Assembly (NCBI RefSeq): GCF_032854445.1
Contig: NC_088307.1
Span: 3,348,001-3,412,000, forward strand
From: Liolophura sinensis
Lineage: Eukaryota > Mollusca > Polyplacophora > Chitonida > Chitonidae
Reading direction: 5' to 3'
DNA: 64,000 nucleotides
Part shown: positions 8,716 through 63,372 of the stretch, piece by piece
How the letters are laid out: every line of letters starts with the position of its first letter
Numbering within the stretch: the first letter of the stretch is position 1
Made by a program: the position numbers and the translations under genes
The notes under the pieces: generated by a model
Databases searched by the model: none
Seen by the model: the letters and a program-made list of their open reading frames with translations, nothing else
What the model was told of the DNA's origin: nothing

Positions 8716-11700
8716 CTGAGCTTCCTCGGGGTTGTCTGGGGCATAGACGGCATACCCTTCTTCACACAGCACGTTGTTCACGTGGATGTCCTCGTCTGTG
8801 TTTGTATCCGTCAGGTAAACAGACAGCACGTAGTCCTGAGCAAGGGATAGACAAAGGGGAATAATTACATGACTAATTCACTTTTCCTAGCCAAAAAATA
8901 CAATTTTCATGTTTCTCAAGAATATCCTTACCAACTAACAAGGCATTCAGAGAATCCCACCAGCTTGCCTGCTATAGCAGTCAACTAGACAATGGAATCA
9001 GAATAAAGATCAAAGGTGTAAAGTGCTGTGATGGTAAAGTGCTGTGATGGTAAAGTGCTGTGATGGTAAAGTTCTGTGATGGTAAAGTGCTGTGATGGTA
9101 AAGAAGTCACTGGGGGAAGTTCATGCACAAAACTGAGACAGTGGTCTCTGATATGCAAATTGTGAACTGCATGCAGCAATCCATAAACAATTCCAACGTT
9201 GTGAATGGATGAGAAAATAATGAGCTATGGTAGTACAAAAAACTTCATTGTGGGGTGTTCGAGCACCAACTCGCTCGAGTGGTCTTTGATATGCAAATCG
9301 CTTCCCATGATTAGCTATCCCTGTACTAAGGGTGGCTACTGCAGCCCTCTGATTGGCTGAACAAATACTCAGCTGAGAACAGTCACTGTCTGCGTGGATA
9401 GTTTAAACATTCCCTCACAGAACAGGAGGACACATGCATCAGCCAGTGTCGTAGGCTCCTAGTACCAATACGGATGTGGAAAGCTTTCTACAGATATTGT
9501 GTATACCAGGTGAACTGGTATACACCGAAGTAAATTCTTACACTTTACAAACCTGGTAAAGTAGATTGGGAGACAAAAAGCTTATCTACATAAGTGCTTG
9601 CATCAGAAACTGTAGCCCTACATGAAAGACTTGTACAGATCTGTGTTACAGAATGCAGTCAATCTGAATGTGTGTCCACAAAACGGGAAAATGGTGACAA
9701 ATCTGGCGAAACGGCCAGAGCAACCCAATGCCCTTTTTGTTCTCCTTCATGTAGGTAGGCATGTGCATAAAAATTACAGATCTACATGAAACTTTTCCTG
9801 ATTACGAACATTGTAAATCTGGTAAGGTTCATAAATACTCATCAGCAATAAAGTCACAGAAACCCTGTATGCGAGAAATTGTTGTCCTGTATGCAGGTTT
9901 AATTTCTAGAGAACATGTTTACTACAGAAAATAAACTGAAGTTTATATAACTGGTAAATTAGGCTTACAAAAAAAAGCCTAACCTTCAATCCATGTATGA
10001 TAGCCCAATATACAACACCTGAAAAAAAAACTTAACCTACAATCAATGAATGACAGCCCATTATACATGTACAGAAGTTAAAATAAAAAAAAAATTAACC
10101 TTCAATCAATTTATGACAGCCCATTATACATGTACAGAAGTTAAAATAAAAAAGCTTAACCAGATACCAACACCGACACTTTTCCCCTCGCTCTCACAAT
10201 ACTTCTCCTTACTTCATACTGGCGAGTTAAAAACCACCCCTTCAGCAATTATAATCTGTACTTTCAAAATACAAAGAAATCTATTTCTACAACGTATGGG
10301 TGGAAGTTTTGTTCCTTAATTCACTTCCAAATATTACTAAACTTTCTTTTTGTCAGGGAGGTGGCAGTGGACTTTCAAGCACAAAGCACGGTTCCTTAAC
10401 CTTGAGATGCATATACGTCTATATTTATTTTTTCTTAACAAATTGTAACATGGTAATTATGATTGCGTTATTTGTTTGCTTGAGTTATCCACTTTTGAAG
10501 CTTCAAACAAAATACATTCAAATCACATTCAAACCAGCTTAAGTTTTTTCAACGAGAAACTTTAAATACATGATCAGGTCAGCAAATTCAGAATCTGAAT
10601 TCACGCAAGCACTAGAATGTAATATTTATTTTTATTTATTTATTTGATTGGTGTTTTATGCCATACTCAAGAATATTTCACTTGTACGACGGCAACCAGT
10701 ATTATAGTGGGAGGAAACCGGGCAGAACACAACCATCAGCAGGTTGCTGAGAGACCTTCCCACTTACGGCAGAATGTAATAACCAAGTTTTATGATATAA
10801 TTATGAGTGTGAGCTGTGCAACCAACAAAACCTAAAACTCATTTTTCCTGATTCTGAGAGTTCTACCGACCTTAAAAAGATGGTCTGGGGTCTGTCTGGA
10901 AGGCAAATTGATAACTACTGGAGATCTGCTTGATAGCCAAAAGTAACATTTGACGACTAACATTAGGATGTAAAAATGCACTTTTCTGGGGTAATTATAA
11001 GGGCAGACAGATGTACCTTTAGATCTGTGACTTCAGCAACAACAGCTTTATTCCCCACTAAATCCAGCATCCTCCTCATCGTGGCCACGGTCCAGCCCTG
11101 AAATACACAAGGCAAGACAACCATGAACTCCTTCTCCTGCACTATTCACACAGTCCAGCCCTGAAATACACAAGGCAACACTAACATGAACTCCTACTCC
11201 TGCACTATTCACACAGTCCAGCCCTGAAATACACAAGGCAATACAACCATGAACTCCTACTCCTGCACTATTCACACAGTCCAGCCCTGAAATACATAAG
11301 GCAAGACAGCCATGAACTCCTACTCCTGCACCTTTCACACAGTCCAGCCCTGAAATACACAAGGCAACACAACCATGAACTCCTACTCCTGCACCGTTTA
11401 TATACACAAGGTCACTTTCAGATACATACATGCATTCCAGCGTGAGCAACTGTTCTGGTTGATTAGATGCTCGGAGACATACACGTATTCCAGCGTGAAC
11501 AATTGTTCTGGTTGACCAACTGCTGGGAGACGTACACGTAATTCAATGTGAGCAACTGTTCTGGTTGATCAGATACTAGGAGACGTACACGTAGCTTGTC
11601 TGAACTGTGGCTGTTAAGCAGGCTGACCACTTACTGTCAAAAAAAGCCCAACAAACAATGTCCAAGGCTGGGATTGAACACTCGCCTCACATGGCTTGTG

Positions 11701-14700
11701 GTTGGGAGTCACAAAACTGACTCACTGAGTCACATCCAGCTTCCCAGAATTCATATGACTGATAGATTATCATATACTACCCTAGAGTTACCCCAATTCC
11801 TCAACCACTTTGCATAAATGAAGGAGCAACTTTCAGCGCAATTCATGCACATTTTTTTCATTTTTCAAAACCACATTGGTTGGGTTGGCCAGTGTCAGGG
11901 TTTCACGCAAAGCCTAATTTTATCAGTCAAAACAGAATAATGCCAGACTATGCTAGAATAAATACCTTGCAAACACGCGGGAGGTTGAAGAATTAAAGTA
12001 TACTGATATTCTGACCACATGGTTCCAAACGTGTCACTGATGATGTGGACAACAAACACAAAATAATAAGAAAGATACCTGTTTTAAGTGTGCACCAGTA
12101 CACAAGCTCAGAACAGACCATAAGCTAGACAAAACCAAAACACACATCCATTTATTCCCCTTTACAACAATGCAGAGTTTCGGGACGATCCATGCTTTAT
12201 TGTCATTCTTCAACCCCACGTGTGCAAGGTGTTCATTCAAGCATACCCTAAAGGCATTATGCTCTGTAGACTGGTAAACTTATACATTTTGCCAAGCTCT
12301 AAAACCGGTCAATATAGATCTGTGTCCAAAATCAAAATAAAAATGTGCATAAATTCCACTGAAAGTTGCTCTTTCAAATGTGAGTTCATGAAAAATTTCA
12401 GATGCCACAAATATAAAATGCAATAAACTTGCTAAATTAGCATATGTTACTCCCTAGGGGGACACTACATGTACTTTCACATAGGTAGACTTGCCATTGA
12501 CATACACAAATGTTTAGTTTTCAGTTTAGAATACTGACCGATATTAATGGGTTTATTTACTCATTTATTTGACTGGAGTTTTACCCCATATACAAAAATA
12601 TTTCACTACGGTGGGAGGAATCTGAGCAGATCCAGTGGGAAACCCACGGCCATCTGCAGGTTGCTGGAAGGCTCACTGATGATATTCAAAAGCTAACACT
12701 TACGGTCTTTGGAGCAGTCATATCAGTCAGTCTGGCTTGCAGTGCTTGACACGGCAAGCGTAAATACCGCCTCCTGAAACAACAATGCGGATGAATTCAA
12801 TAACCAGAAATCTTCCTCCTAAAACAACAATGCGGATGAATTCAGTAACCAGAGGTCTTCATCCTAAAACAACAATGCGGATGAATTCAATAACCAGAGG
12901 TCTTCCTCCTAAAACAACAATGCAAATGAATTCAATAACCAGAGGTCTTCTTCCTAAAACAACAATGCGGATGAATTCAATAACATGAGGTTTTCCTCCT
13001 AAAACAACAATGCGGATGAATTCAATAACCAGAAATCTTCCTCCTAAAACAACAATGCGGATGAATTCAATAACCAGAGGTCTTCTTCATAAAACAACAA
13101 TGCGGATGAATTCAATAACCAGAGGTTTTCCTCCTAAAACAACAATGCGGATGAATTCAATAACCAGAGGTCTTCCTCCTGAAACAACAATGCGGATGAA
13201 TTCAATAACCAGAGGTCTTCCTCCTAAAACAACAATGCGGATGAATTCAGTAACCAGAGGTCTTCATCCTAAAACAACAATGCGGATGAATTCAATAACC
13301 AGAGGTCTTCCTCCTAAAACAACAATGCGAATGAATTCAATAACCAGAGGTCTTCTTCCTAAAACAACAATGCGGATGAATTCAATAACATGAGGTTTTC
13401 CTCCTAAAACAACAATGCGGATGAATTCAATAACCAGAAATCTTCCTCCTAAAACAACAATGCGGATGAATTCAATAACCAGAGGTCTTCTTCATAAAAC
13501 AACAATGCGGATGAATTCAATAACCAGAGGTTTTCCTCCTAAAACAACAATGCGGATGAATTCAATAACCAGAGGTCTTCCTCCTGAAACAACAATGCGG
13601 ATGAATTCAATAACCAGAGGTCTTCCTCCTAAAACAACAATGCGGAAGAATTCAATAACCAGAAATCTTCCTCCTAAAACAACAAGGCGGATGAATTCAA
13701 TAACCAGAGGTCTTCCTCCTAAAACAACAATGCGGATGAATTCAATAACCAGAGATCTTCTTCATAAAACAACAATGCGGATGAATTCAATAACCAGAGG
13801 TCTTCATCCTAAAACAACAATACGGATGAATTCAATAACCAGAGGTCTTCCTCCTAAAACAACAATGCGGATGAATTCAATAACCAGAGGTCTTCCTCCT
13901 GAAACAACAATGTGGATGAATTCAATAACCAGAGGTCTTCTTCATAAAACAACAATGCGGATGAATTCAATAACCAGAGGTCTTCCTCCTAAAACAACAA
14001 TGCGGATGAATTCAATAACCAGAGGTCTTCCTCCTAAAACAACAATGCGGATGAATTCAATAACCAGAGGTCTTCCTCCTAAAACAACAATGCAGATGAA
14101 TTCAATAACCAGAGGTCTTCCTCCTAAAACAACAATGCGGATGAATTCAATAACCAGAGGTCTTCCTCCTAAAACAACAATGCGGATGAATTCAATAACC
14201 AGAGGTCTTCCTCCTAACACAACAATGTGGATGAATTCAATAACCAGAGGTCTTCCTCCTAAAACAACAATGCAAATGAATTCAATAACCAGAGGTCTTC
14301 TTCCTAAAACAACAATGCGAATGAATTCAATAACCAGAGGTCTTCTTCATAAAACAACAATGTGGATGAATTCAATAACATGAGGTCCTCCTCCACTCAG
14401 GGTCACAGAGAAAAAAACATAATGATCCCAAACGACAAACCGGACATTGTGAATGTGTATAATGTCACCAACCTTTGTCATAAATGTGTATAATGCCATC
14501 AACCTTCAGCAAGTTACTGATGAACTTTTACACATGTCACATACCAATTATGAACAAAATATTGGTAGATGACAAGCCTTCTCCACATTATGGCCACAAA
14601 AGCATCATCGACAGTTTGTACCCAAGGCCCCCATGCACAGTGAGTAAGAGTGAATCATCCAATTTACACTTACCTGAGCATACAGAGGGATGTCTTGGGC

Positions 14701-17700
14701 ACAGTACAGGTATTCCCATAGTCAACATAGTACACCTGAGAAACAAAAAATCTTTTTTTTATGCAATCACTGCAATGGTTTGTGTGTATGCTTGGCGTTT
14801 GACTAAGTTGACATTAGACTGACACCGAGCCAGCCAACCAATCCTGTTTCATTGCTGTAACTTCTCAGTGCCGAGCATCAAGAAAGGTAGCAACAAGTTC
14901 CATTTTCAAAGTCTTTGGCATGACCCAACCTGGGTTTGAACCCAGGTCTCCTAACTCAGAGGCAGACACTTTAACCATTAGGTAACAGGAGTAGACGTTT
15001 CTGCAGTTGTACCAAAAGAATCACCCAAGACTGACATGAACATGATTTACAGGGCATGAAGCATGATATTAATGAAAGACACTGTTCCAATTCAACCTCT
15101 ACAGATATCAGAATGACAAGATTTCAGCTGCAGTATTAACACAAAAGTAAATTTTTAAATACTTGAAAATTTTTTCTTGCTTTGTACATGAACACCTACT
15201 TTTCTGTTACACCTTAACCATATTAACAGGTAACCAGTTTTCACAACAGGTGGTTTATCAATTTAGAATATTTCCTTCATAATATACCTTGACATGTTCT
15301 ACCCAATTACTTACCTGTACAAAATCTAAATCCTTGATACCCACAATAACTCCCCTGTGCCAGTTTTCATCCTCAGGAAAGATAACTGCACACACCTGTC
15401 CCACCACAATCATAGATTCCGGCATCTTGTACCGCTCACCTGCCTTTGTTTTATAAAAGCTGAAATCAAATGAAAAAACTACAGATTTACTCTACCTGTT
15501 GACTGGAACATAAAACAGAAGGCACAGGTACCTTCAGACTGGTTATCTCTTCATTGATGCATAAATCTAACATATCAGGGTAATACTGTTAAGTACTTAT
15601 TATTCTCTGGAATTTATTTTCGCAGATTTTCTCCAAAAATTTGTTCGTGGGAATAAATTTTCATGTTTTTAAGAGAATACTGAAAAACAGATCTTAAAAT
15701 TTTCCAAGATATAATATGGCCAAAATTATTCAAGCACGTCAAACATGTATCATCATGGGTGGCTTTAATCCTCCTTTGATTCCTGAGGTGTCACTAATCC
15801 TCATGATCTGGATCAGAGATTAAAACAATGGGGGATGGATAATCACTACGTAAGAAGATCACTTTTGCACCTAGGCTGAGCAGTACTCAAACAGGTGTCA
15901 CTTCTTTTCGAATCACTGATGAGCACTTTTAAACACCTAGCAAGGTGACCTGTCACCTTTTGAACAGTTCCAATGCAAAACATATGAATTCAACATTATT
16001 GGCGCCAGTCACTCATTCTTTATCAAGCAACATGGTAAGTTTTGCATTGTTTTCAGTTTTAATCTTCCTCTGTAGCAGGTCAGAAACCGCAAACATTGCC
16101 GTAGCTGTCAAACGGCCATTGTTTTGTTGTACACACTTCATAGTTTGTCAGAAGGTCACTCACTGGACCACAGGAGAGACATAGCCGATAGGATCGCGTG
16201 TATCAGAGCGACATTCATTAGAAGCCAGCACGTGCTGGTATCTACTTTCCTTTCACTTTACGGGCATAGCAAAGATTGATCAAACTAAAGACGAATAAAC
16301 TCCCACTTTGTTTTATACCCACCAAGCCTTAGCACCAGAGTTTGTATATATTTAAACCATAATCCCCTCTCCCTGCTGCTGAAAAATTTAGCTGGCCCAG
16401 CCGTCTTTCTTATCGCAACCCCCGTTACCCTGGCAAAGATTTCACTTCATTATTACTACTACCAGTAGTATATGATTCAATACTGGATGCTTTTTTTTTT
16501 TTGCTAGAATTATTTTTCGCTGTAAATTATTGACCGCGAAAATTAATTCCACACGAAAATTAAGTACTTCACAGTTGTCAAGATTTTACGATGGCATATA
16601 GGGTGTAGCTGCCAGTTAACTCAGAGTCATACCAGGAATGTAAGAAGCAGAGACTTGCAGTACTGTATTACATTGCTAACTCTGCTTTCCGCTCCATTCA
16701 TGGAAGCCAATGTACATGTAGGGATTCTTACTCTAAACTTTCCATCAAATCTTCCAGAGCCATTGACGTCTCACGACCACGAAGCTGCAGCCAGAATCTG
16801 GAAGGGTTGTTAATGTTGGACACGTAGACCTCGATGTACTCCTTCTCAGCGACAGCCGGGTGGAGATGCCCCAGGGGTAGAGGTTTGTATGAGGTGCCAT
16901 AACTCACTATGTCATCGGGGAGCTCAGAGGTAGCTGCTGAGGTATTCACAGACACTGATGCAGGCTGTGGTGTGAAGATTGTAAATGAATTTATTTATTT
17001 GAACAGTGCTGATTCTTATTCAATGACATACTCAAGAATCTCACTGACAGTCATCATTATAAAAGGGAGGGTTGAACATTTTTGTCAGCGTACCCCAAAA
17101 TAAATTTACCCAGACACATTTTCTGAAAAGGGGAGGAAACAAAAAAAAAAAACATCTGGAATTCAACCAAAGAGGGGTGAAGCAAATAGGAGTGCCAACC
17201 TTTGGCAAGTCAGTGATGAATTTTGCCCTCATGTAACATATATCTACAGATGTGTAAACCATACTGGAAGGTGCTAAAGAACACAAGGCTATGCTATGAA
17301 CCTCAAATGGGATTTCTGTGGGTATCTTTCTGAACGAATGAATGGCATTGTGGTAGACCTAGGCATGTTCATTTGACATCACCAGTTATATGTTCACATT
17401 GAAAATATAACATTACTGGCATTTATAATAGACTGAGACTTGTGGTAGACCTAACCATGTTCATATGACATCACAAGTTATATGTTCACACTGAAAATAT
17501 AACATTACTGGCATTTATAATAGACTGAGACTTGTGGTAGACCTAACCATGTTCATATGACATCACAAGTTATATGTTCACACTGAAAATATAACATTAC
17601 TGGCATTTATAATAGACTGAGACTTGTGGTAGACCTAACCATGTTCATATGACATCACAAGTTATATGTTCACACTGAAAACATAACATTACTGGCATTT

Positions 17701-20700
17701 ATAATAGACTGAGACTTGTGGTAGACCTAACCATGTTCATATGACATCACAAGTTATATGTTCACATTGAAAATATAACATTACTGGCATTTATAATAGA
17801 CTGAGACTTGTGGTAGACCTAACCATGTTCATATGACATCACAAGTTATATGTTCACACTGAAAACATAACATTACTGGCATTTATAATAGACTGAGACT
17901 TGTGGTAGACCTAACCATGTTCATATGACATCACAAGTTATATGTTCACACTGAAAATATAACATTACTGGCATTTATAATAGACTGAGACTTGTGGTAG
18001 ACCTAACCATGTTCATATGACATCACAAGTTATATGTTCACACTGAAAACATAACATTACTGGCATTTATAATAGACTGAGACTTGTGGTAGACCTAACC
18101 ATGTTCATATGACATCACAAGTTATATGTTCACATTGAAAATATAACATAACTGGCATTTATAATAGACTGAGACTTGTGGTAGACCTAACCATGTTCAT
18201 ATGACATCACAAGTTATATGTTCACACTGAAAATATAACATTACTGGCATTTATAATAGACTGAGACTTGTGGTAGACCTAACCATGTTCATATGACATC
18301 ACAAGTTATATGTTCACACTGAAAATATAACATAACTGGCATTTATAATAGACTGAGACTTGTGGTAGACCTAACCATGTTCATATGACATCACAAGTTA
18401 TATGTTCACACTGAAAACATAACATAACTGGCATTTATAATAGACTGAGACTTGTGGTAGACCTAACCATGTTCATATGACATCACAAGTTATATGTTCA
18501 CACTGAAAATATAACATTGCTGGCATTTATAATAGACTGAGACTTGTGGTAGACCTAACCATGTTCATATGACATCACAAGTTATATGTTCACATTGAAA
18601 ATATAACATTACTGGCATTTATAATAGACTGAGACTTGTGGTAGACCTAACCATGTTCATATGACATCACAAGTTATATGTTCACACTGAAAACATAACA
18701 TAACTGGCATTTATAATAGACTGAGACTTGGTAGACCTAGGCATGTTCATTTGACATCACAAGTTATATGTTCACACTGAAAATATAACATTACTGGCAT
18801 TTATAATAGACTGAGACTTGTGGTAGACCTAACCATGTTCATATGACATCACAAGTTATATGTTCACACTGAAAATATAACATTACTGGCATTTATAATA
18901 GACTGAGACTTGTGGTAGACCTAACCATGTTCATATGACATCACAAGTTATATGTTCACACTGAAAATATAACATTACTGGCATTTATAATAGACTGAGA
19001 CTTGTGGTAGACCTAACCATGTTCATATGACATCACAAGTTATATGTTCACACTGAAAATATAACATTACTGGCATTTATAATAGACTGAGACTTGTGGT
19101 AGACCTAACCATGTTCATATGACATCACAAGTTATATGTTCACATTGAAAATATAACATTGCTAGGCATTTATAATAGACTGAGACTTGTGGGTAGACCT
19201 AAGGCATGTTCATATGGACATCACGAGTTATATGTTCACACTGAAAATATAACATTACTGGCATTTATAATAGACTGAGACTTGTGGTAGACCTAACCAT
19301 GTTCATATGACATCACAAGTTATATGTTCACACTGAAAACATAACATAACTGGCATTTATAATAGACTGAGACTTGTGGTAGACCTAACCATGTTCATAT
19401 GACATCACAAGTTATATGTTCACACTGAAAACATAACATAACTGGCATTTATAATAGACTGAGACTTGTGGTAGACCTAACCATGTTCATATGACATCAC
19501 AAGTTATATGTTCACACTGAAAACATAACATTACTGGCATTTATAATAGACTGAGACTTGGTAGACCTAACCATGTTTCATATGACATCACAAGTTATAT
19601 GTTCACACTGAAAACATAACATTACTGGCATTTATAATAGACTGAGACTTGTGGTAGACCTAACCATGTTCATTTGACATCACAAGTTATATGTTCACAC
19701 TGAAAATATAACATTACTGGCATTTATAATAGACTGAGACTTGTGGTAGACCTAACCATGTTCATATGACATCACAAGTTATATGTTCACACTGAAAATA
19801 TAACATTACTGGCATTTATAATAGACTGAGACTTGGTAGACCTAACCATGTTCATATGACATCACAAGTTATATGTTCACACTGAAAATATAACATTACT
19901 GGCATTTATAATAGACTGAGACCTTGTGGTAGACCTAACCATGTTCATATGACATCACAAGTTATATGTTCACATTGAAAATATAACATTACTGGCATTT
20001 ATAATAGACTGAGACTTGTGGTAGACCTAACCATGTTCATATGACATCACAAGTTATATGTTCACACTGAAAATATAACATTACTGGCATTTATAATAGA
20101 CTGAGACTTGTGGTAGACCTAACCATGTTCATATGACATCACAAGTTATATGTTCACATTGAAAACTAACATTACTGGCATTTATAATAGACTGAGACTT
20201 GTGGTAGACCTAAGCATGTTCATATGACATCACAAGTTATATGTTCACACTGAAAACATAACATAACTGGTATTTATAATAGACTGAGACTTGGTAGACC
20301 TAGCCATGTTCATTTGACATCACAAGTTATATGTTCACACTGAAAATATAACATTACTGGCATTTATAATAGACTGAGACTTGTGGTAGACCTAACCATG
20401 TTCATATGACATCACAAGTTATATGTTCACATTGAAAATATAACATTACTGGCATTTATAATAGACTGAGACTTGTGGTAGACCTAACCATGTTCATATG
20501 ACATCACAAGTTATATGTTCACATTGAAAATATAACATTACTGGCATTTATAATAGACTGAGACTTGTGGTAGACCTAACCATGTTCATATGACATCACA
20601 AGTTATATGTTCACACTGAAAATATAACATTACTGGCATTTATAATAGACTGAGACTTGTGGTAGACCTAAGCATGTTCATATGACATCACAAGTTATAT

Positions 20701-23700
20701 GTTCACACTGAAAAATATAACATTACTGGCATTTATAATAGACTGAGACTTGTGGTAGACCTAACCATGTTCATATGACATCACAAGTTATATGTTCACA
20801 CTGAAAACATAACATTACTGGCATTTATAATAGACTGAGACTTGTGGTAGACCTAACCATGTTCATATGACATCACAAGTTATATGTTCACATTGAAAAT
20901 ATAACATTACTGGCATTTATAATAGACTGAGACTTGTGGTAGACCTAACCATGTTCATATGACATCACAAGTTATATGTTCACACTGAAAATATAACATT
21001 ACTGGCATTTATAATAGACTGAGACTTGTGGTAGACCTAACCATGTTCATATGACATCACAAGTTATATGTTCACATTGAAAATATAACATTACTGGCAT
21101 TTATAATAGACTGAGACTTGTGGTAGACCTAACCATGTTCATATGGCATCACAAGTTATATGTTCACACTGAAAACATAACATTACTGGCATTTATAATA
21201 GACTGAGACTTGTGGTAGACCTAACCATGTTCATATGACATCACAAGTTATATGTTCACACTGAAAACATAACATAACTGGCATTTATAATAGACTGAGA
21301 CTTGTGGTAGACCTAACCATGTTCATATGACATCACAAGTTATATGTTCACACTGAAAATATAACATTGCTGGCATTTATAATAGACTGAGACTTGTGGT
21401 AGACCTAACCATGTTCATATGACATCACAAGTTATATGTTCACACTGAAAACATAACATTACTGGCATTTATAATAGACTGAGACTTGTGGTAGACCTAA
21501 CCATGTTCATATGACATCACAAGTTATATGTTCACATTGAAAATATAACATTACTGGCATTTATAATAGACTGAGACTTGGTAGACCTAACCATGTTCAT
21601 ATGGCATCATACATAGAAAAATAGACTGAGACTTGACCATGAAGTATGAATGTTCAATTTAAACAAAAAGCGCAAATGCAGACTGTTTCTTGTTTATACC
21701 AAAAACTCATTCCCTGCGACTGAGAAGAGCAGCTTACGTTGAGCAGGCTGTGTTCAACAGGTCTGATCTCAGGGGGCGACATGAGCGAATCGGAAGGAAA
21801 CTCTATGCCTGAAACTATCATCTCACCTACAACAACAACAACAAGAATTATTTACTTATTGGTGTTTTACCACACTCACTATGAGTGCTTGGCACACTCA
21901 ACAACATTACAACAGTATGAATTACAGAATTTAAATACATGTAGCTTGCAACAGCGGGCTGTTGATTAAAAAACTCACTGATGACTTTTTTTTTTTATCA
22001 GAAGTGATATTTAATACATGCAGAAATGACAAAAAGTTTCCAATTATATTATCAGATGACAGCATATGCGCTGTTGCAATTACTTCTCTCTCTACCCTGG
22101 CTTTAGCTTACCTTTTCCATTCATGGGACAGGTTCTCACCTGTTTCAACTTACTATTCTCTTTACAAACTTCAAAAGACTCTAATTCAACAGCCCTTTTA
22201 AATTAAAATTATTTATCACGGTATAATTTAACAACATGATCCAAGTGAAAGTTTTAATGCATACGAAAGTTATCAGATTTTGGGAATTCCACGTTTGTAA
22301 CTTTAATGATTAAAACCAATGTATATTCTTTTGTAATAAAACAAAAAATACACATCAGCAGACGCTTGTGACTTTCCCACGGGGCTCTGCTGACTGCTGT
22401 CATATTAGTGAAATATTCTTGAGTACATCCTAAAACACTAATCAAACAAACAAATTAATAAATAATAATACAAATTTGAATGTGACAATTACAGGAATTG
22501 AAGCAAATTCTCCTAGTTTTTGTTTCAGGCAGTCATGAGGAGAGTCTCAGATTCCTGTTGATAGTGAAGTCCTGATCACTCACCGTTTCCAACATATTTC
22601 AGGTTGAGGTATTTATCCATGACTGACAACAGCATGCCATCCATTGTCTTGAACCCTAGCTCCACTGGGTCCAGCACTTTGCCTGTTAAACGCTGAATTA
22701 GCATTAAAATCAGTTATCACTTTCACTTTCAATCCACAAGACAAAATATTATTCCTCAAACAAAATTTTATCAAAGTGTTACAATATCTAAAGCAGTTAT
22801 TGTAAGAAAACTGATGACAAATCACAAATAAGAAAATCTTTTATTTTTTTTTTTTTGATTGTTGTTTTACGCCGTACTCAAGAATATTTCACTTATACGA
22901 CGGCCGCCAGCATTATGGTGGGTGGAAACCGGGCAGAGCCTGGGGGAAACCCACGACCATCCGCAGGTTGCTGGCAGACCTTCTCACGTACGGCCGGAGA
23001 GGAAGCCAGCATGAGCTGGACTTGAACTCACAGCGACCGCATTGGTGAGAGACTCCTGGGTCATTACGCTGCGCTAGCGTGCTAACTGACCGAGCCACGG
23101 AGGCCCCGAAAATCTTTTAATATGCAATAACAATTTTATAGATCTGGCTGGTTTTTAAACTTGATCTGCGGTTCAAAAGCATAACACAAAATGAACCAGC
23201 GCACAGAAAATGAACCAGCATACAAAATGAAAAATTTTCTTGAAAACAAACAATACTTTACAGAGCTATTACATGAAAACCAAAGTGTGACAGACAGATG
23301 ACAGACCCCTAATATTTCTTTCTCAAGTGGAAAATCAAAAGAACTAATGCAAACCTACTTCATTAGCCTTGTACTGACACAGCCTTCCTCAGACATAATT
23401 CCTGTATATGCATAGCTAATCCAATAATCCTGAAACATCCCACTTCGTCATGAAGTCATCAAGAAAACAAAAACTCAGGCAGCAAACCTACCTGATACAC
23501 TTCTGCCAACTCTGACCGAAACACACCCTCTTTGTGATGTAGCAGGACCCAACGAAGCTCCTCTTTAAACTCATCATCAAATTTACTATTTGCTTGTAAC
23601 TCCTTCTGTTCTTCCTCATGCTGCTTTTCAGGTGATGGAGGTTTAGCTGAAACAGATGGGAGACTTCTGATGAAAGAGAGATTGGGGGGAGGGCTTCAGG

Positions 23701-26700
23701 CTTCTGGCGAAAGAGAGATTGGGGGAGGGGCTTCAGTCTTCTGATGAAAGAGAGATTGGGGGAGGGGCTTCAGTCTTCTGATGAAAGAGAGATTGGGGGG
23801 AGGGCTTCAGGCTTCTGATGAAAGAGAGATTGGGGGGAGGGGCTTCAGTCTTCTGATGAAAGAGAGACTGGGGGAGGGGTTCAGGCTTCTGATGAAAGAG
23901 AGATTGGGGGGAGGGCTTCAGACTTCTGATGAAAGAGAGATTGGGGGGAGGGCTTCAGGCTTCTGGCGAAAGAGAGATTGGGGAGGGGCTTCAGTCTTCT
24001 GATGAAAGAGAGATTGGGGGAGGGGCTTCAGTCTTCTGATGAAAGAGAGATTGGGGGAGGGTTTCAGGCTTCTGATGAAAGAGAGATTGGGGGGAGGGGC
24101 TTCAGTCTTCTGATGAAAGAGACTGGGGGAGGGCTTCACGCTTCTGATGAAAGAGAGATTGGGGGAGGGGTTTCAGGCTTCTGATGAAAGAAAAATTGGG
24201 GGGAGGGCTTCAGGCTTCTGACAAAAGAAAGATTGGGGAGAGGGGCTTCAGGCTTCTGATGAAAGAGAGATTGGGGGAGGGGCTTCAGGCCTCTGATGAA
24301 AGAGAGATTGGGGGAGGGGCTTCAAGCTTCTGATGAAAGAGAGATTGGGGGGAGGGGTTTTAGTCAATGAAAGAGAGATTGGGGGAGGGGTTTTAGTCAA
24401 TGAAAGAGAGATTGGGGGGAGGGGTTTTAGTCAACGAAAGAGAGATTGCAGCCAGGGGTTTTAGTCATGTTAGTCTTCTGACGAAAGAGAGATTAAAGCC
24501 AGGGGATTTAGTCTTTAGAAGAAAGAGGGGCTGGGGTCAGAGGGCTTTGTTTTCACATGAAACAACGAGTCAGAAGGATTAGATTTTAGAAGAAATAGGC
24601 AAAGGAGGCAAAAGATTGAGTGTCCGGAAGAAAAACTTCTGAAATTTGATTTCTGGAAGGTAGCAACTGTTGACCCATGTAAAGCGTTAAGTCCAAATAA
24701 ATGTCAGGTTTAACTCTTAGAGGCTACTGACTTTCACAAAACGGAACAGACAAGAAAGTATGGAAGCCAGATACTCCATGTTTATTTATTTGAGTGGTGT
24801 TTTTTACGCCGTACTCAAGAATATTTCATTTATATGACAGCAGGTAGCAATTTGGTGGGAGGTAACGAGGCAGAGCCTGGGGAAACAGATCTGTTGCTAA
24901 ACTTACATTTCGGTTGAATGCGGGCATCAAACAGCAGCCAATCAGATGCCGAGGGGCGTTCTACACGGACAATATCCTGCAATTCACCGACAAACTGAAG
25001 CACACTGTAATAGCCTAACTCCGTGAGGCCAAGGTCTTTATTGTACTTTGCCTGAAACATAAACTACATCTGTTAAAATATTTTTAAAATTTACACTTTT
25101 GGCAAGTACTGCACTTGACCTCAAATTTCATGAAAGGGCGAAGATCAGCAGAAACATTCGATGACAGTGGCATAACTCAGTAAAATGCTCTAACCAGGTA
25201 AACTTTATGATCACGGAAATGTAAGTACCAGTACTTAAAATTTTATACACAACCTCACAAACTGAAATAAATTTGTTTTTAAGATATTAGTTAAAGGAAT
25301 CGTGAACATAATATCAACATTTACTTTACCACGATATGGCTTAACAATGCCCATGTGATGTTAAGCCACCATCAATCATTCATTCATTCAACAACAACTT
25401 TAAACTCAATTTCAAAAGCATGCATATATATAAATTGACACCTACATCAAACAACTAACCTTATACTCCTGAATGAGTCTGGATGCCAGAATACCCTCGG
25501 GTTTAGCAGCCAGAAGCTACAAGAATATGTTCAAAACACAAATTAAATAGACACACACATGGTAACTGAAGACACAATGGAGCAGGATCATATATAGGTT
25601 CATTTTACTTCTGGATACTGCTGGGCACCCAAATTTATTAAGCTGTAATAAAAATAACAACTAAATTGAACAAGAACATAAATATTTGATTAGCAGTTTA
25701 AAAAGTTAGCTTTTCATGCAAACTTCTTTGAATCACAGACTTAAAAGCACTCAGAAAGCATCATTTTGTGTTGTATTTTATACAGTTTCTTTATCCACGG
25801 TCACAATGTCATCTTTAAACTTTTGGATCAAGGCATTCATTAATTTTCTAGATTTAAGCCCTGTCAGGTGGATTGTGCTGAAAAATGTACCACTTGCATG
25901 ATGACTTAGTCTAACACTCCGCGACACTTGGGGAAAACAACAACTCCCACAGTCTCAGACAAGCCTTGATTTAACGGTTGCCTTAAAGGGATACAGAATC
26001 ATTTCTGATTGGCTTGTGTGAGAGATAGGCAAGTGCAAGCTATCCTTAGCCTGAGGTGAATTTTAGATACAGTAGATTCATTCAAACATGACCAAACGGT
26101 TTAACCCATGAAAGCCTATTTCCACTGTCAGCCAATCAGCATCAATTTCGTATCCCTCAAAGTAGGAAGGTGCTTATTTCGACAGCCTTCAGTAGCCACA
26201 TACTGATGCAGTCAAGACAATTACTGATTTACCTGTTCGTTACAACCACACAACATTTGAATCACAGTCAGACTGGTCACGCCTAGAGACAGTTTCATAA
26301 GCTATAGGTTTGTAACAACTGCTGTGCGATACATTTTTCAGTTTAATCCATGTGTAAAACTACTAGTGTGACTGGTAGTGAAACCTTCAAGCCATGACTT
26401 GACCTCATACAGTGTGGATTAGCCTCCATTAAAATTAATGAGCCTCTTCTGTCATCTTGTCTCGAACTTTTCTTTTTTTAATGTGTGTTGATAAACCAAC
26501 CCATCAGTGGCTTGCAGACCCTCAGTTAGCAGTTTACAGCATGGCACAGCGCAATGCCTATCGTAAAGTCTGCCATGCTTCTGTGAAGCCACAGTGCAGT
26601 GCGTCCTGCTTCAAAAAAACACTTTATTTGATTTGCTGTCTTTTTCTGCAAAACAATACTGCAAATATCTTCATCGGCTTGTCGTATTGTATTCACTGAA

Positions 26701-29700
26701 CAACGCTTCTGACTGCGGGACAGTTTTTTTCCCTCCAAATAATGAAGAGCAACCATAAAATCAGAAACCACTGTTAGCCTGATAATTCTTACCGCGAAAC
26801 GCGCACATATTATTCGCAACCGTGAATCAACAAGCTTGCACAATTAAACTTAAACGTTAGACCATTGCCAACAGTGTGCCCACTTAGGGTCGACTGGAGA
26901 GGAAGCGCCAGTCCTCCCACAAAACACTACCCACACAAAGTTTAATCCATCTTTTTGTAGTTCTATGAAATCGACGAATGCAACTATCAAAGCAACAACA
27001 ACGACAACTTCTGAGTCAGCCATCTGTCTTGAAGATTTATACAATCTTATAAGATAATAAAATCTTTATACAAAGTACTCCTCAAGCATACCAGGCAAAA
27101 CTATTCAAGAAGAAAACTTTTTTTGTAACTTTTGAGAAAAAAAAATGATTCTAAGGGTATGAATTTTACAAATGACTTAAATGACTGAATTAAGAGATGT
27201 CAGTTACAGCAACGTTTTGTTTCAAATTCCTTACCTAAAGCTATTAGTAAAAACTCCTGAACAAAATAACATTCATGTCCATGGTGCTATTTGTATTTGA
27301 TGTAGCGGAAATCGCAAATATAAAATAAATTTAAAAAAAAGAGATATGAATTAAACATCAATACAACAATTTCCTAAACAACTGTTTAGGTACTTAAGTT
27401 AATAAACTGTCTGCTAAGGAGTATTTCATTTAAAAAAGTTCTTCCCCTTTAAGGAATGCATTTAATGTGATACTGATGTCTGCTGGCAAGGCTTACATAT
27501 GTGAAAACATCCATTTTTTACTACCAGTGAAAGAGCTTTAATTCCACTCCAAGGGTGACATGGTATTAAAATTGACATATATTTAAACTATGACTTTAGA
27601 CCTAAACTGGCCTTGAATTACAACATACCCAACTCCAGCAGTGCCAAGTTCTTAGCGGCCGGGGACCGCAGGTCAGTGGATGCCCGGCTATTACATCTAT
27701 AACACTCATGCCCCATGCCTTTAATGAAGCGGTCCCCAGACACCTGCCTATTATGGCTAGAACACTTATCCCCCATGCCTTTAATGAAGCGGTTCCCGGA
27801 CACCTGGCTACTATAGCTAGAACACTCATGCGCCATGTCTTTAATGAAGCGGTTCCCAGACACTTGGCTATTATGGCTAGAACACTTATCCCCCATGCCT
27901 TTAATGAAGCGGTTCCCAGACACCTGGCTATTATGGCTAGAACACTTATCCCCCATGCCTTTAATAAAGTGGTCCTCAGACACCCGGCTATTATGGTCAG
28001 AACACTCATCCCCCATGCCTTTCATAAAGCGGTCCCCGGACACCTGGCTATTATGGCTAGAACATTCATCCCCCATGCCTTTAATGAAGAGGTTCCCAGA
28101 CACCCGGCTATTATGGCTAGAACACTTATCCCCCATGCCTTTAATAAAGTGGTCCTCAGACACCCGGCTATTATGGTCAGAACACTCATCCCCCATGCCT
28201 TTCATAAAGCGGTCCCCGGACACCTGGCTATTATGGCTAGAACGTTCATCCCCCATGTCTTTAATGAAGCGGTCCCCAGACACTTGGCTATTATGCCTAG
28301 AACACTCACGCACCATGTCTTTAATGAAGCGATCCCCGGACACCCGGCTACTATAGCTAGAACACTCATCCCCCATGCCTTTAATAAAGCTATCCCCGGC
28401 TACAACAAACAAGTTTTCAATCATGATATGAACACTAATAGCGTATTCCAAATAAGTACCTGACTCCCAAGGTTTTAAAGATGGCCTTACCTGCTGAATT
28501 TCCTTCTTCATCACTTGGCTAATATTGGAGGTGTCATCATCATCATCAGACTCCATGGACCCATCACTCTCCAAGTCATGAAGACTGGAATCAGGGCAGG
28601 TAACTCTGCTCTCCACAGGCGACTGTCCCCCCTGAATACAATGTGCCTCATCCTCTCTTCTATCATTATGTGGAACAGCTCTAATGATGGGACTGACACC
28701 TAAAAAATGTAAATATTATCCTTTTCCATTCTTGGAAGTAACATTAACTTGTTTCTTTTCTATCTGGGTACTTTCATATATAAGTGAGTGGGATTTGACA
28801 TCTCGCAAGTGGGGGTGAAGAGATTTCAGGAAGGCTTTTCACTTAACTCTACTTTATTTTTTGGGCTGGACAGTTGCACTTTTATGGTTACTATTTATTC
28901 TGACATTTATCCTCATCACATTCCAAAACAAATCTGCATTTTTCTGTAATTTGTACTTGCACTTCCTAGTGGATAAGCAGAGTCGGCATTTCAGGAGTCC
29001 CGCAAGTAGATATGGACAAGACAGTGTGGGGACTCTAGCAAACTAACACAGCTAAAAGGTGAGATTTTGCAGTATTGCTAGGGTGAACACAAATCTCACA
29101 AAGCGGGATCTGTCGTCTCAATGGCGCCGTTAGCAGCTGGGGTATAATCAGGCCTTTCAGCTGCATTAGTTCACCTGAGCTCCCCCCACCCTATCTCATC
29201 TGAACCTGCATGATCTCGCCAGCTTCCTGAAATGCCGACTTGGCTAATAACCATCAAGTCAGGCTATAAATACAATTCAACCAAAATGTTGGAGAGCACT
29301 CGCTATCCACATGAATTCTAAATTACATGTATTACGTAACCCGTCTCCACCTTGTCAGGCCCACAGCTACCCAACCATTTCAAAGACTTGCCTCGGAATC
29401 TATGAGTGAGAGGCATGTTGCCTAGGTCACGCTGGGGTTTGTTCTGGGGCTGGCTGTCACGTGCCGAAACACTGTTACTTCTCCATGGTTGGGATGGTTT
29501 CTGTGCTCCCTGCCAAGATTGCTGTTGGCCATGCCCTCTGCCCAAGTACACCATGTAGTCACTGCCATAACGCTCCATTGCCACAACAGACTGCCCATGC
29601 AGATAATCTATCACCTTATACAAGCTGTTAAAGCCTAAATGACGCCATTCAAACTGCACACCAAACCGCTTTAAAAAAGCTCCTTCCAACTGAGTGAGAC

Positions 29701-46800: not shown

Positions 46801-49800
46801 GTACGTGAGTGAGTGAGTGCTTGGGGTTTAACGTCCTACTCAACAATTTTTCAGTCATATGACGACGAAGGAATCCTTAGGGTGCATGCACGTGTAATGT
46901 GCCTCCTTGTTGCAGGAGGACGGATTTCCACCGCTCTTTTATTTAGTGCTACTTCACTGAGACGACTTCCCGAAGGCAAGTAAGTAGCCCCGCCATTATA
47001 CTGATACGGGTCAGCCAGTCGTACTATCCCCTTCACGCTGAACGCCATGCGAGGAAGTTACAAGTTCCTCTTTTAAAGTCTAAGGTGTGACTCGATCAAG
47101 GATTGAGCCTGGATCTACCGGTCCCAAAGCTGACGCTCTACCAACTGTGCTATCCGGGCCGGTACGTACGTATGTATGTATGTATGTATGGACACACGCA
47201 CGCACGCACACACGCACGCACGCACGTATGTATGTACAGCTTACCTAAGCTGTTGTATCCCCGCAGGGTGTACTTTGCTAGACGTCTGAACATGGACATC
47301 TTAGATAACCAACCATCGCTCCTCTCTGTGGCAACCCACGTGGTCGGCTCGTATTGACGCAGTTCGTAATCCTGCAAATAAACAAGTACAAACGATGTGA
47401 ATGTAAGCTTTAACTGCTACACTCAAAAAATTATTCTGTAAATTTTAACAGAAAGTCTGTTGTCTGAATGCTGATAGAATGTATTCTGTTGTTATAACAC
47501 AATATTCTGTCGTATTCAACGTAATAACCTGTTAGACTAATAGAATCTTTATGTTGAATTACTAGAATAGGTTTGTTATATTTAAAGGAATATAACGTAA
47601 TAATAGAATACACTGTCGCATCACTCAGGCAACAGGCGTTCTGTAAATATTAACAGATTAATTTTTTGAATGTAGATTGTTTGATTGCTTGCTTGATTGA
47701 GTCTTCTAATGCTGCCAATACGTAAGACTATTTCTCCTGCACAAATAAATAGTAAGTTTTATGGGAAGAGAAAAACGAAGTGCAAGCAGAAAGTAGACGG
47801 AAATTAACAATACATTGGTATTTCGATAACCGAATAACGAAACTTGCACTGCAGCACCAGATTCGTTATATCTCGTTCTTCAGTGAGCTGCTGGCTATAT
47901 GTGATAGCACCACATTTGTTTTTCGTTATTCAAATAAAGCACCACTTTGTAGACCTAGCACTTCTTAGGAACCTTACTCGAATATTGTGGCAGTCAATTA
48001 TTCGCTATTGCACAACAAGTTTACTTGAACATAAAAGTTTATAGAATGTGCACTTCTGAGATTCGCTTAACGCGCTTGAATTATATAAGAATGAACTTCT
48101 AAATAAATAGTCACGTGTTAGAGCCACATTCTAGTAATCCTCTTTTTGCACGTCCGAATAACAAATAACGTGCTAGAACCATGTTCTGCTGAACTTTTTA
48201 TTTCACATCCGAATAACGAATAGAACCATATTCGGGTAAATGTCTCATTATACACCTGAATAAGAAATAACATGCTAGCACGATATTATTTTTATTTATT
48301 TATCTTTTTCATTGGTGTTTTACGCCGTACTCAAGAATATTTCACTTATACGACGACGACCAGCATTATAGTGGGAAGAAACCTGGCTTAGCCCGGCGAA
48401 ATCCACGATCATCTGCAGGTTGCTGGTAGACGTCCCCACGTGCGACCAAAGAGGCAGCATCATCATGATAGCCAGCGTTTTATAGCAATCAGAGACAAGA
48501 TTTTAAGCGTCCATAACAGATCCAGGGCTAACGTTTATACGTCTGTAATGGTACGTTATATTGGAGATCTGATTTTAAAATTTGGTGGTATAGTACAATA
48601 TTCGTATAACGAAAAAGGAACATGAAAGTTCTGCGAGAGCCAAACCAGTCCCGTACTGGTTTGAGCCACGGGCTTAATACAGTAGTTATATCAAATCCAT
48701 TAGCAGGACAAAACACGACCATAATTTTGTCCAAAGCTACTTAATTTGCCCAATTCTCGAGCTGGATCCGTAGATTATCATGCTAAAACTATGCACCAGA
48801 TTTCAAAATATAATGTTTCCATATAAAAAATTGAGGCATTGCACAATTGCCTTTATTCGTATTTCACGATATTATATTAATTAATTGTTGAAGTATAACA
48901 TTGGTATTTAAATAAAACAAACGGCCATAATATATTAGAAAATTAACAAATTGGCCGCAAATCTGTAACATGTATAAATTGTGAAGTTTCGGGAACGGGT
49001 GGTGGTTTCATTGTAAAACAACTAACTGCTTAACAACGATTAACCTATGAGTAGCTAACTGTTGATCGCCAGTAAACAACTAGTCCTTGGCAAATATACA
49101 CTCAAAAAATTAATCTGTTAATTTTAACAGAAAGTCTGTTGTCTGTGTAATGATAGAATGTATTCTGTTATTATAACAAAGTATTCTGTAATATCCTGTT
49201 AGTCACAAAATCTTTTTATGTTGAATTGATAGAATATGTGTTTTATTTTTTAACAGGATACTCTGCTCCAATAGCAGAATACTTTCTAGCATCACTCAGA
49301 CAACAGAGTTTCTGTTAAACTTAACATATTTTTAGAGTATAATTTATGCGTCAATTCCGACAGTCGTGTACAACTCATACACCGCGCGTGAAGGGGAGAT
49401 CTAAGTCGATAACTGGAAAGCCTATTTCCTAAGCAACCTTTAACACTAATTCCCTGAGGAATATTTAAAAAATAATATGTTAACACAGCAAATACAGCTG
49501 GCAACATTTAAGAGAGAAACAATCGTCATTTTTTAGGGATGCAGGTATAAGTCAGTCGGTACTCTAGTCATGCAGCCCATATGTAATCTACATGTATTTA
49601 GGCTGATGTCACGTGATCGTCAGTAAACTTTATGTAAGACTAATCAAACGATTTTGCATCCGCTATCGATCTTTTACTGTCACCATGGCCTCGAGAAAAA
49701 TGGAGGCTTGGGAATCTCGAAAAGCAGATTAGACTCAAATGACCTGAAACTCTTCTTGTCATTCGTATACACACCGGGGCCAGATTAGAGACTCCCTCGG

Positions 49801-51581: not shown

Positions 51582-51659
51582 CTCGCCTCTTATACTGAAA
51601 TTGATCAATTATAGCGACTACGTCTCAATGAAATGATTAAATCAAAGTGAAATCAGCTT

Positions 51660-51928
51660 AATTTATTTATTTATTTGATTGGTGTTTTACGCCGTACTCA
51701 AGAATATTTCACTTATACGACGGCGGCCAGCATTATGGTGGGAGGAAACCGGATAGAGCCCGGGGGAAACCTACGACCATCCAAAAGGTTGTGGCAGACC
51801 TTCCCACGTACGTCCGGAGAGGAAGCCAGCATGACCTGGGCTTGAACTCACAGCGGCCGCATTGGTGAGAGGCTCCTGGGTCATTATGCTGCACTAGCGC
51901 GCTAACCGACTGAGCCACGGAGGCCCCT
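51660..51928 (-). mobile_element. SINE family C, full length
   Basis: Tail TTTGATTGGTGTTTTACGCC, core AGAGCCCGGGGGAAACCTAC, head on minus with GGGGCCTCCGTGGCTCAGTC and GAGTTCAAGCCC. It lies just upstream of SOUL copy A exon 1. Confidence 0.92.
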
Positions 51929-56690: not shown

Positions 56691-56784
56691 TGACTGGAAG
56701 TCGTAAATATGTCGTAATTCAAATTGATCTGATCTTTAAGAAAAAGAATGTACAATGTATGTAAGTATGTATGTATTTATGTAT

Positions 56785-59697: not shown

Positions 59698-62600
59698 CTA
59701 CGCTGCGACCAGCCAGACCTCGTTGTGTCGGTTAAACCATGTGAATGGACTATTATACCCGACTTTGTAAGCGACGTTCTGCTCGTACTGATTGTCCGAC
59801 CCCAGGGAGGACTTCAGAGCCAGAATCTCATTGTCGTAGTCCGAGTCAGAAGCGAAACCACCGAATGTTCTGAAATAAAGTCATGACATATATTAAAATT
59901 ATTGATCGTTATTCGAGTACGGCGTAAAACACCAATCAAATAAATAGATAAAACAAATATTATTCACACAAATTAGCCGCAGTTACACTAACTTCGAATT
60001 GCAGGGCTAAAAAGGGACCAGTTCGGGGCCGACTCCGCTCAGTTAACCAATGTATGACTGTGAGCGTACACTTCTAATATAGTCCGGTAGGCAGATCTAG
60101 CGTTTGAATTACATGTACCTCCAAGGGACACAAAACTCGCACCTGTCATATCGGGTATTTGCAGGCAGCTGAACAGGCAAATTTGGACGAAAACGGTGGA
60201 CTAAAAGGAGTCGTTCTAATTTAAGCTTCCAAAGTTGGCGGATCAGAAAAAGCCGGCCTAAATGAACCCGGTTTAGATTAGGACACCCTTTAGTGTAAAT
60301 TCAGAGTCGGGCCCGAGCCAACATCGATCCACCATTTTTTCCTAGTTTAACCGCGGATTTATACGATGACTGACAGTTATTGATGGAGAAAACTGACAGG
60401 AGTGCACGAGGTAAACCTTACTGACAAGTTACTGACAAACTTGACCACAGAGGTCACCGGATCAGCAGCCTTGATTACAGCGGTCGTCAGATGCGCATCC
60501 TTGATCACAGCGGTGCCCATATCCGCATCTCTGATCACAACGGTCGCCATATCCGCATCCTTGATCATAGCGGTCGCCATATCCGCCACATTGCATGGTT
60601 TATAGCCTCAGTTTTATTGATGCTGTTCCGTAATATAATCAAAGTCCTTCGGTATTTATCTATTTACGTATCCAGTACCACGATTCAAATATATTTTTTT
60701 CATGCATTTACTCAGTACTGTACAGGTAGTAGAATTATTCACGTACCTGACATAGACCTTAAGCGCTGGCATCTTAACGATGTACACGAGGGCGTTCGTC
60801 GGCATCGGGGGGTCTTTCTGTCTGTCCTCGGGCAGCATGAACATCATCTCCTCGGGAGCTGTTGTGCTGATTTTTGTCACAATGGGCACGGTCATCGGCA
60901 TCCTCAACTCTAGGGGAAGGCCAAAAGCCTATTATCAATACTCACACAAATCTTTCATAGTTTAAAATATGTATTTCTTAACGATCGGCCCTATTGAACA
61001 TTCAAACCCAACAACAACAAAAATATCCATGTCCATAAGTTTCTTATTTCGGCGTCAAAGAAACAAATATGATAAAAAATTTAAAACCAAAGAAACCCCT
61101 TGCATGATGCCAAATGGAAGGACAGAAAACGCAAGGTATCTTGTGATCACGACTTCGACTTTCTCGTGATCAAGACTTACACTTTCTCGTGATCACGACT
61201 TACACTTTTCACACAAACTGAGCTAATAATGCAAAACGAGGCAAACAATAGTCTTCACGACTATTCACGAGTCATGTCCCTTTGTCTGTGGTGCGGAAAT
61301 TCAAGCATTTATAGCTGGGTCGCTCTCCGAGTGCCTTCTAAATTGTTTGTACTTTTATCTAATTTTTGTTTATTTTTGTCCAGTTAATCTATACTTTTGT
61401 CCAGTTGTCTATGCTTCTGTCTAGCTTGTCCTCACACTGTTTTCTTGTCTCACTCCCACATGTATATACGTATGTATATAGCTTAGCTAAGCTGTTGTCT
61501 TCCTTCCACGTGTATGTATGTACGGCTTACCCAAGCTATGGAAAGCGTGCAGGTCTATTGTGTGTATGTATGCATGTACAGGTGTATATAAAGCGTGAAT
61601 GTGTGTATGTATAGCTTACCTAGGCTATAGCATCATTACCCCATGTAAACCTGTATATACATGAAGCAGGCATTCGTATACCAAGTGTCAACCAAAATAT
61701 ACACTTTAGGTCAATAATCGCAAGGCTAATTCCCAAAATGGCGTTTAACAGAAACCACCAAAGAACTAAATCAGTATATAAAGTATGAAATTAAGATGAA
61801 ACTATGCAAAAAGAAGCAGTCAACAGCTGTCATTTATATGAGGAAGATTAGAAAGAATGGTCTAGGCGAATTTAGTGAAATCAATATTCAAATCGTGTAC
61901 CATGTCGGTATATAAGTTATCAACGATAAAATATGCATGATTTGCGCTTTGATTGCAACTGTTGGTATGTTCAACTTGGCGATCTAATTCACCACGATTA
62001 ATACACGGTCCCTAGCCCCTGGCTTACCTATAGCTTACCTAAGCTGCTGTGTCCCCTCACGGTGTATTTTACCAGGCGCATATGTTGTGTATATAGTACT
62101 ATAGCTTACCTAAGTCGTTGTATCCCTTCACGGTGTATTTTACTAGGCACATATATTATATGTATGGCACTATAGCTTACCTAAGCTGTTGTATTCCCTC
62201 ACGGTGTATTTTACCAGGCACATATATTATGTGTATGGTACTATAGCTTACCTAAGCTGTTGTATCCCCTCACGGTGTATTTTACCAGGCACATATATTA
62301 TGTGTATGGTACTATAGCTTACCTAAGCTGTTGTATCCCCTCACGGTGTATTTTACCAGGCACATATATTATATGTATGGCACTATAGCTTACCTAAGTC
62401 GTTGTATCCCCACACGGTGTATTTTACCAGGCACATATATTGTGTGTATGGTACTATAGCTTACCTAAGCTGTTGTATCCCCTCACGGTGTATTTTACCA
62501 GGCGCATATGTTGTGTATATAGTACTATAGCTTACCTAAGTCGTTGTATCCCCTCACCGTGTATTTCACCAGGCGCATATACTGTGTATATGGTACTATA

Positions 62601-63372
62601 GCTTACCTAAGCTGCTGTGTCCCCTCACAGTGTATTTTACCAGGCACATATATTATGTGTATGGTGCTATAGCTTACCTAAGCTGTTGTATTCCCTCACG
62701 GTGTATTTTACCAGGCACATATATTATATGTATGGTACTATAGCTTACCTAAGCTGTTGTATTCCCTCACGGTGTATTTTACCAGGCACATATATTATAT
62801 GTATGGTACTATAGCTTACCTAAGCTGTTGTATCCCCTCACGGTGTATTTTACCAGGCACATATATTATGTGTATGGTGCTATAGCTTACCTAAGCTGTT
62901 GTATTCCCTCACGGTGTATTTTACCAGGCGCATATACTGTGTGTATGGTACTATAGCTTACCTAAGCTGCTGTGTCCCCTCACGGTGTATTTTACCAGGC
63001 GCATATGTTGTGTATATAGTACTATAGCTTACCTAAGTCGTTGTATCCCCTCACCGTGTATTTCACCAGGCGCATATACTGTGTGTATGGTACTATAGCT
63101 TACCTAAGCTGCTGTGTCCCCTCACGGTGTATTTTACCAGGCACATATATTATGTGTATGGTACTATAGCTTACCTAAGCTGTTGTATCCCTTCACGGTG
63201 TATTTTACCAGGCACATATATTGTGTGTATGGTACTATAGCTTACCTAAGCTGTTGTATCCCCTCACGGTGTATTTCACCAGGCGCATGTACATGTAAAA
63301 CGTTGAGAACCAGCCATTGCCTCTTGCTGTGGCAACCCACGTGGTCGGCTCGTATTGGCGCAGTTCGTAATC
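59698..63372 (-). CDS. SOUL/heme-binding family protein, copy B (5' exon beyond window)
   Basis: Three exons, 63246-63372, 60747-60909 and 59698-59869, have the same lengths (127, 163 and 172 bp) and phases as exons 2-4 of copy A, showing tandem duplication of a whole gene in the same orientation. Encoded blocks include DYELRQYEPTTWVATARGN, PEEMMFMLPEDRQKDPPMP and GYNSPFTWFNRHNEVWLVAA before the TAG. The signal-peptide exon is expected to the right of position 64000. Differences from copy A cluster in the second half of exon 2 (copy B FYMYMRLVKY, copy A MSMFRRLAKY). The exon 3 acceptor is a TAG. A large array containing this gene's exon 2 donor follows in intron 2. Function as for copy A; partners unknown. 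Confidence 0.9.
59907..59952 (+). mobile_element. SINE family C tail relic
   Basis: GAGTACGGCGTAAAACACCA followed by ATCAAATAAATAG. Only the 3' end survives, in intron 3 of SOUL copy B. Confidence 0.65.
60455..60595. repeat. 30 bp tandem array, about 5 copies
   Basis: GCATCCTTGATCACAGCGGT and CGCCATATCC make up each unit. The 10-codon unit leaves small open frames on both strands. It is in intron 3 of SOUL copy B. Confidence 0.85.
61460..61660. repeat. Old, decayed copies of the 71 bp donor repeat
   Basis: TATAGCTTAGCTAAGCTGTT, GTACGGCTTACCCAAGCTAT and TATAGCTTACCTAGGCTATA are diverged versions of the motif at 62.0-63.2 kb, mixed with (TATG)n-like sequence. Confidence 0.6.
62028..63245. repeat. 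71 bp tandem array of a partial exon plus splice donor, 17 copies
   Basis: Units at 71 bp spacing (62028, 62099, 62170, 62241 and so on) contain, on the minus strand, about 44 bases of SOUL copy B exon 2 (coding VKYTVRGYNSLG) and its donor CAGCTTAG|GTAAGCTATAG. The genuine exon end at 63246 is the rightmost member of the series. Copies differ by few substitutions (AAGCTG/AAGTCG; CGCATATGTT/CACATATATT). If a distal donor were used, translation would read straight into AAG CTA TAG and stop. Confidence 0.93.

Follow-up and report, generated by a model that had tools for sequence, protein, structure and literature searches.

Tandem arrays spanning exon-intron junctions in a chiton genome resemble amphioxus mirages and are compatible with random seeding

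The stretch of DNA analyzed here, 64,000 bp in length and hereafter referred to as the window, corresponds to C13:3348001-3412000 in the 609-Mb, 632-contig assembly of a chiton genome published as Liolophura japonica, a name since corrected to L. sinensis (PMC11068029, PMC12441733). It contains the genes TDRD5 and ZIP7/SLC39A7 and two SOUL/HEBP paralogs (Table 1), and the minus strand carries all the genes that host the five arrays discussed below. TRF identifies 22 non-overlapping arrays with a period of at least 20, which together occupy 13,109 of the 64,000 bp, and in four of these 22 a splice junction lies inside the array and connects reading frames that agree with the gene family: the 45- and 63-bp arrays of TDRD5, the 92-bp duplication (x2) of ZIP7 and the 71-bp array of SOUL/HEBP. 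All four have one edge located 4–43 nt inside an exon, the remainder being intron. An earlier, sequence-only reading of the window had proposed that repeats of these four unit lengths include a splice site, and the presence of the junctions within the TRF arrays, with frames that join across them (as established by hand for the 63-bp array), bears this out. A dispersed repeat with the text ttttacgccgtactcaagaatatttca..., found at 22850-23110, 24790-24900 and 51660-51870, probably represents a SINE-like family.

Table 1. Genes, exons and tandem arrays of the window (positions within the 64,000 bp).
Feature	Position	Strand	Basis and remarks
TDRD5	about 8.7-30.2 kb	-	TUDOR + LOTUS Pfam, reading frames
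TDRD5 exon GWTVATMRRMLDLVGNKAVVAEVTDLK	11017-11097	-	De novo exon; phase follows exon 12704-12773
63-bp array, 4.9 copies	11086-11394	-	TRF; spans acceptor of TDRD5 exon 11017-11097
TDRD5 Tudor-domain exon (..RRYLRLPCQALQARLTDMTAPKT)	12704-12773	-	Pfam, reading frame; donor position read from sequence
45-bp array, 36 copies	12770-14394	-	TRF; spans TDRD5 acceptor at 12773
37-bp array, 21 copies	23664-24423	-	TRF; abuts TDRD5 acceptor
ZIP7/SLC39A7	37.4-40.6 kb	-	Zip Pfam, reading frames
92-bp tandem duplication, 2 copies (x2.0), 100% identical	39095-39279	-	TRF; spans acceptor of ZIP7 exon 38913-39118
Two SOUL/HEBP paralogs	43.9-47.4 and 59.7-63.4 kb	-	SOUL Pfam, reading frames
Paralogous SOUL/HEBP exon, same donor, no array	47245-47371	-	Comparison locus, de novo exon
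71-bp array, 17.8 copies	62028-63288	-	TRF; spans donor of SOUL/HEBP exon 63246-63372

In TDRD5, the 63-bp unit comprises 51 nt of intron and 12 nt of exon, and the array encloses the acceptor TTTCAG/GGCTGGAC at 11097 (the slash marks the junction) with 12 exon nt. The 45-bp array reaches 4 nt into the exon beyond the acceptor TTTCAG/GAGGCGG at 12773, and most of its intronic copies read TTTTAG/GAGG, a weaker site than the authentic TTTCAG/GAGG. The 37-bp array does not include the in-frame acceptor at 23646, but stops 17 nt upstream of it within the pyrimidine tract, as the sequence-only reading had described. Each 37-bp unit also contains CTTTCATCAG/AAG, and the AG of the nearest copy (23666) would break the frame if used. 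A larger array with a 92-bp unit (46 copies, 97% matches) lies inside a TDRD5 intron at 17348-21609, and its minus-strand unit contains the acceptor-like TTATATTTTCAG; as a candidate for the 92-bp repeat of the sequence-only reading it was set aside, since it is intronic, with the nearest donor some 130 nt away, and includes no junction. A further array, with a 60-bp unit (12 copies, minus strand, 27618-28715 in the window), has a reading frame that stays open and connects without a break to that of the TDRD5 exon at 28491-28692 (a 365-aa stop-to-stop ORF); it may represent an extended coding repeat, a coding repeat in a retained intron, or simply a stop-free unit.

The ZIP7 unit consists of 68 nt of intron and 24 nt of exon, with the acceptor GATACAG/GTAAATC at 39118 and 24 exon nt within the array. 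In the arrayed SOUL/HEBP gene, each 71-bp unit contributes 43 nt of coding sequence and 28 nt of intron, the donor TTAG/GTAAGC at 63246 lies within the array together with 43 exon nt, and this donor is kept in all 16 further copies that were scored. The corresponding intron measures 2336 nt, of which about 1218 nt are array, versus 1179 nt in the un-arrayed paralog. The paralog presents the same junction, and the two introns differ in length by roughly the size of the array, indicating that the array was added to an intron already present and did not give rise to one; accordingly, no new intron position was found at the SOUL array, the junction being common to the un-arrayed paralog. An eroded relic of the 71-bp unit can be recognized in the same SOUL intron, outside the main array, at 61457-61520 of the window (alignment score of 56, against no more than 24 in shuffled sequences).

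For the 45-, 71- and 92-bp arrays, the exon-attached copy was computed to join the frames of both exons, and for the 63-bp junction the phases, read by hand from the upstream exon 12704-12773, also fit. Translation from the next copy encounters an in-frame stop in the 45-, 63- and 71-bp arrays and a frameshift with a stop in the 92-bp duplication; use of the neighboring copy's site hence leads to a stop or a frameshift in four of four window cases. These reading frames suggest that splice-site choice falls on the exon-attached copy.

An independent sample of the same genome was assembled by searching it with the Pfam domains kinesin, myosin head and SNF2; the resulting 90 loci were merged into 63 segments totaling 247,022 bp. 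Splice matrices, which look canonical, were learned from 132 homology exons, and a de novo exon finder (score of at least 13) added 65 exons on the strand of the genes, against one on the opposite strand. Within this one assembly, the sample provides 198 exons, 321 predicted junctions and 76 arrays (period of at least 20), an array being considered spanning if it extends 3 nt or more past a junction in both directions. Thirteen of the 76 arrays (17%) span a junction, and about 4% of the sampled junctions are touched; the generality anticipated by the sequence-only reading thus extends to kinesin, myosin and SNF2 genes. Both acceptors and donors are spanned, in the window and in the sample. In an SNF2-family gene on C10, near 1146000, array S13 (L091) contains about 23 copies of a mostly coding unit ending in a donor (MCKLSKRQRYLYDDFMSQTK/gtaagtg), with the 8-bp direct repeat GTGATGTG at both breakpoints. 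Separately, two myosin-head matches about 1 kb apart (G000:C1:26642195-26642299 and 26643291-26643386) cover almost identical profile positions (118-152 and 121-152) and are possibly mutually exclusive exons.

Acceptor and donor arrays differ in the composition of their units. Across nine acceptor arrays, the intron part makes up 58–92% of the unit and never falls below 23 nt, whereas across six donor arrays it makes up 26–76% and can be as little as 15 nt or less. The contrast in intron fraction (Mann-Whitney p 0.026; p 0.002 for acceptors and p 0.73 for donors against a uniform distribution) was noticed before being tested and leaves out the S13 array. It suits the longer signal upstream of acceptors, namely the pyrimidine tract and perhaps the branch point.

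Since arrays grow by inserting copies, what matters is whether a junction lay within the founding unit; the seed-unit null chosen for this reason reduces each array to a single unit and gives that unit a random position within its own segment. Under this null, the 13 spanning arrays of the sample compare with 8.5–10.6 expected over a range of settings (p 0.06–0.25). The base setting predicts about 9, a ratio of 1.41 (95% CI 0.75–2.41, p about 0.1), and 10 spanning arrays are observed versus 7.9 expected when only high-confidence exons are considered. The number of spanning arrays in the sample is statistically compatible with random seeding, and an excess above about 2.4-fold at junctions is disfavored, the 247-kb sample speaking against a large excess while leaving room for a small one. 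Over the first 600 nt of intron, array edges are evenly dense (0.44, 0.45, 0.51, 0.43, and 0.41 per kb in successive bins); within the final 30 nt of exons their density is 0.73 per kb (7 edges versus about 4 expected), and farther than 60 nt into exons it is 0.08 per kb. Array coverage drops toward junctions, from about 21% at 500–1000 nt to 7% at 0–10 nt. Coverage itself was dropped as the main null statistic because, with arrays growing by insertion, it overstates chance; it conveys the contrary picture of depleted junctions. An apparently strong enrichment by distance to the edges of homology hits mostly vanished after junction refinement, full exon annotation and use of the seed null. In the window alone, 4 of 22 arrays span a junction versus 0.8–1.0 expected (p 0.006–0.018), in the same set where the pattern was first noticed, and pooling window and sample gives 17 versus 10.2 (ratio 1.67, CI 0.97–2.68, p 0.03), a figure biased by the inclusion of the discovery window.

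The most probable reading, and one in which we place considerable confidence, is that the arrays are minisatellites of the mirage type: short tandem duplications of an ordinary kind, which chanced to span a junction, then grew and were tolerated. A short duplication would happen to cover an exon-intron junction, presumably through slippage, a seeding step suited by the 8-bp direct repeat at the S13 breakpoints. The array would then expand by slippage or unequal exchange, like many others in this array-rich genome. The copies do sit within the intron, and the one attached to the exon joins the correct frame. Such a duplication may be tolerated because one complete splice site stays on an intact exon. 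The sequence-only reading had contemplated tolerance of this kind alongside nucleation, and tolerance fits better, the exon-attached copy being usable and the neighboring copy disruptive in all four window cases. Nucleation, in which junctions act as hotspots of tandem duplication through R-loops, co-transcriptional breaks or slippage at pyrimidine tracts, appears unlikely. The window excess (p about 0.01), the slightly raised edge density 0–30 nt inside exons (0.73 vs. 0.44 per kb) and the pooled ratio speak for it, but the confidence interval of the independent-sample ratio includes 1, the intron side presents no edge gradient toward the junction and array coverage is lower near junctions. 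The view that arrays nucleate at junctions hence finds no backing in the sample, and enrichment over random placement, the outcome by which the sequence-only reading proposed to be judged, is not significant within the power of these 247 kb. A combined possibility, that junctions are mild hotspots (1.5- to 2.5-fold) for tandem duplication and that intronic splice-site copies are maintained with less variation than the remainder of the unit, is likewise doubtful; were it true, the arrays would have to be regarded as something beyond passive by-products.

The conservation of the copies bears on whether the arrays have a function, with repeated splice sites kept as splicing decoys or regulators, or as a source from which new exons and introns could arise. 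The AG or GT is kept in most copies (30/35, 3/3, 16/16, 19/20, 17/17, 6/6, 19/20, 8/10, and 4/5, with 0/2 in one array), the core site is invariant among the copies of the 71-, 66- and 63-bp arrays and, in the intronic copies of nine arrays, the core columns of the splice site show somewhat less variation than the remaining columns of the unit (mean rank 0.29, p 0.013). This weak extra conservation would favor a function; it is unexpected under pure neutrality and counts against the favored reading. Nevertheless, the copy consensus is weaker than the authentic site or broken in four arrays (45, 73, 31, and 125 bp), while equal to it in several others, use of distal sites breaks the frame in every window case and most unit lengths are not divisible by 3, making a functional role very improbable. 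A dispersed, introner-like element carrying splice sites and inserting at junctions is harder still to credit: its one point in favor is the location at splice sites, but the units contain the coding sequence of their own host exons, and whole-genome DNA searches with the 45-, 63-, 71- and 92-bp loci, which can miss very common words, matched only the loci themselves and, for the 71-bp array, one paralogous exon. The units searched are thus locus-specific, and the same sequence in many genes, the mark of introners, was not found with them. Collapse or expansion of repeats during assembly can be given almost no weight either. The two ZIP7 copies are 100% identical, and copy numbers are as assembled, but the PacBio HiFi reads average 8.3 kb (PMC11068029), longer than every junction array, and copies have diverged in most arrays.

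The chiton arrays point to mirage-type arrays outside the cephalochordates, in a mollusc, with an estimate of their frequency and a null model, and the latter suggests that no special mechanism is needed for arrays to span junctions. Furthermore, they provide an extensive, naturally occurring collection of duplicated splice sites, useful for asking how the spliceosome picks the exon-attached site when as many as dozens of nearly identical copies lie nearby, and for putting models of intron gain and of splice-site turnover to the test.

Several known systems invite comparison. A limited literature search, which does not imply an absence of reports, found no earlier report of chiton intronic minisatellites. 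In human segmental-duplication genes, variable internal tandem repeats have been described at exon-intron boundaries (PMC2812944); they are, like the chiton arrays, minisatellites at such boundaries, but they alter exon/intron structure and splicing, whereas the chiton arrays retain the conserved junction. The Rogers model proposes intron gain via tandem genomic duplication of AG/GT proto-splice sites (PMC4974935). It likewise begins from a tandem duplication including a splice-like site, but yields a new intron, whereas the chiton SOUL array sits in an existing one. Closest are the mirages of amphioxus, which supply the named system that the sequence-only reading believed to be lacking. As portrayed in two later papers (PMC3087553, PMC3902484), mirages are minisatellite-like tandem duplications of exon-intron boundaries (Canestro et al. 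2002), first named in Adh3 and present also in the globins BflGb6 and BflGb9, TnC and PGBD5; they affect 5' and 3' boundaries, with many copies bearing AG/GT and splicing apparently undisturbed, and those of Adh3 exhibit length and somatic instability. The differences lie in the host, a cephalochordate rather than a chiton, in the estimation of frequency against chance for the chiton arrays, and in the evidence at hand, with splicing, length polymorphism and somatic instability shown at some amphioxus loci and the chiton arrays known from one haploid assembly. On the other hand, in both systems the unit spans the exon-intron boundary (4 window and 13 sample arrays in the chiton), both 5' and 3' boundaries are involved, many but not all copies keep AG/GT, units measure from tens to about 160 bp, the authentic exon is intact and unit sequences differ between genes. 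Judged by this sequence organization, the splice-junction arrays of the chiton resemble amphioxus mirages and are the same kind of structure.
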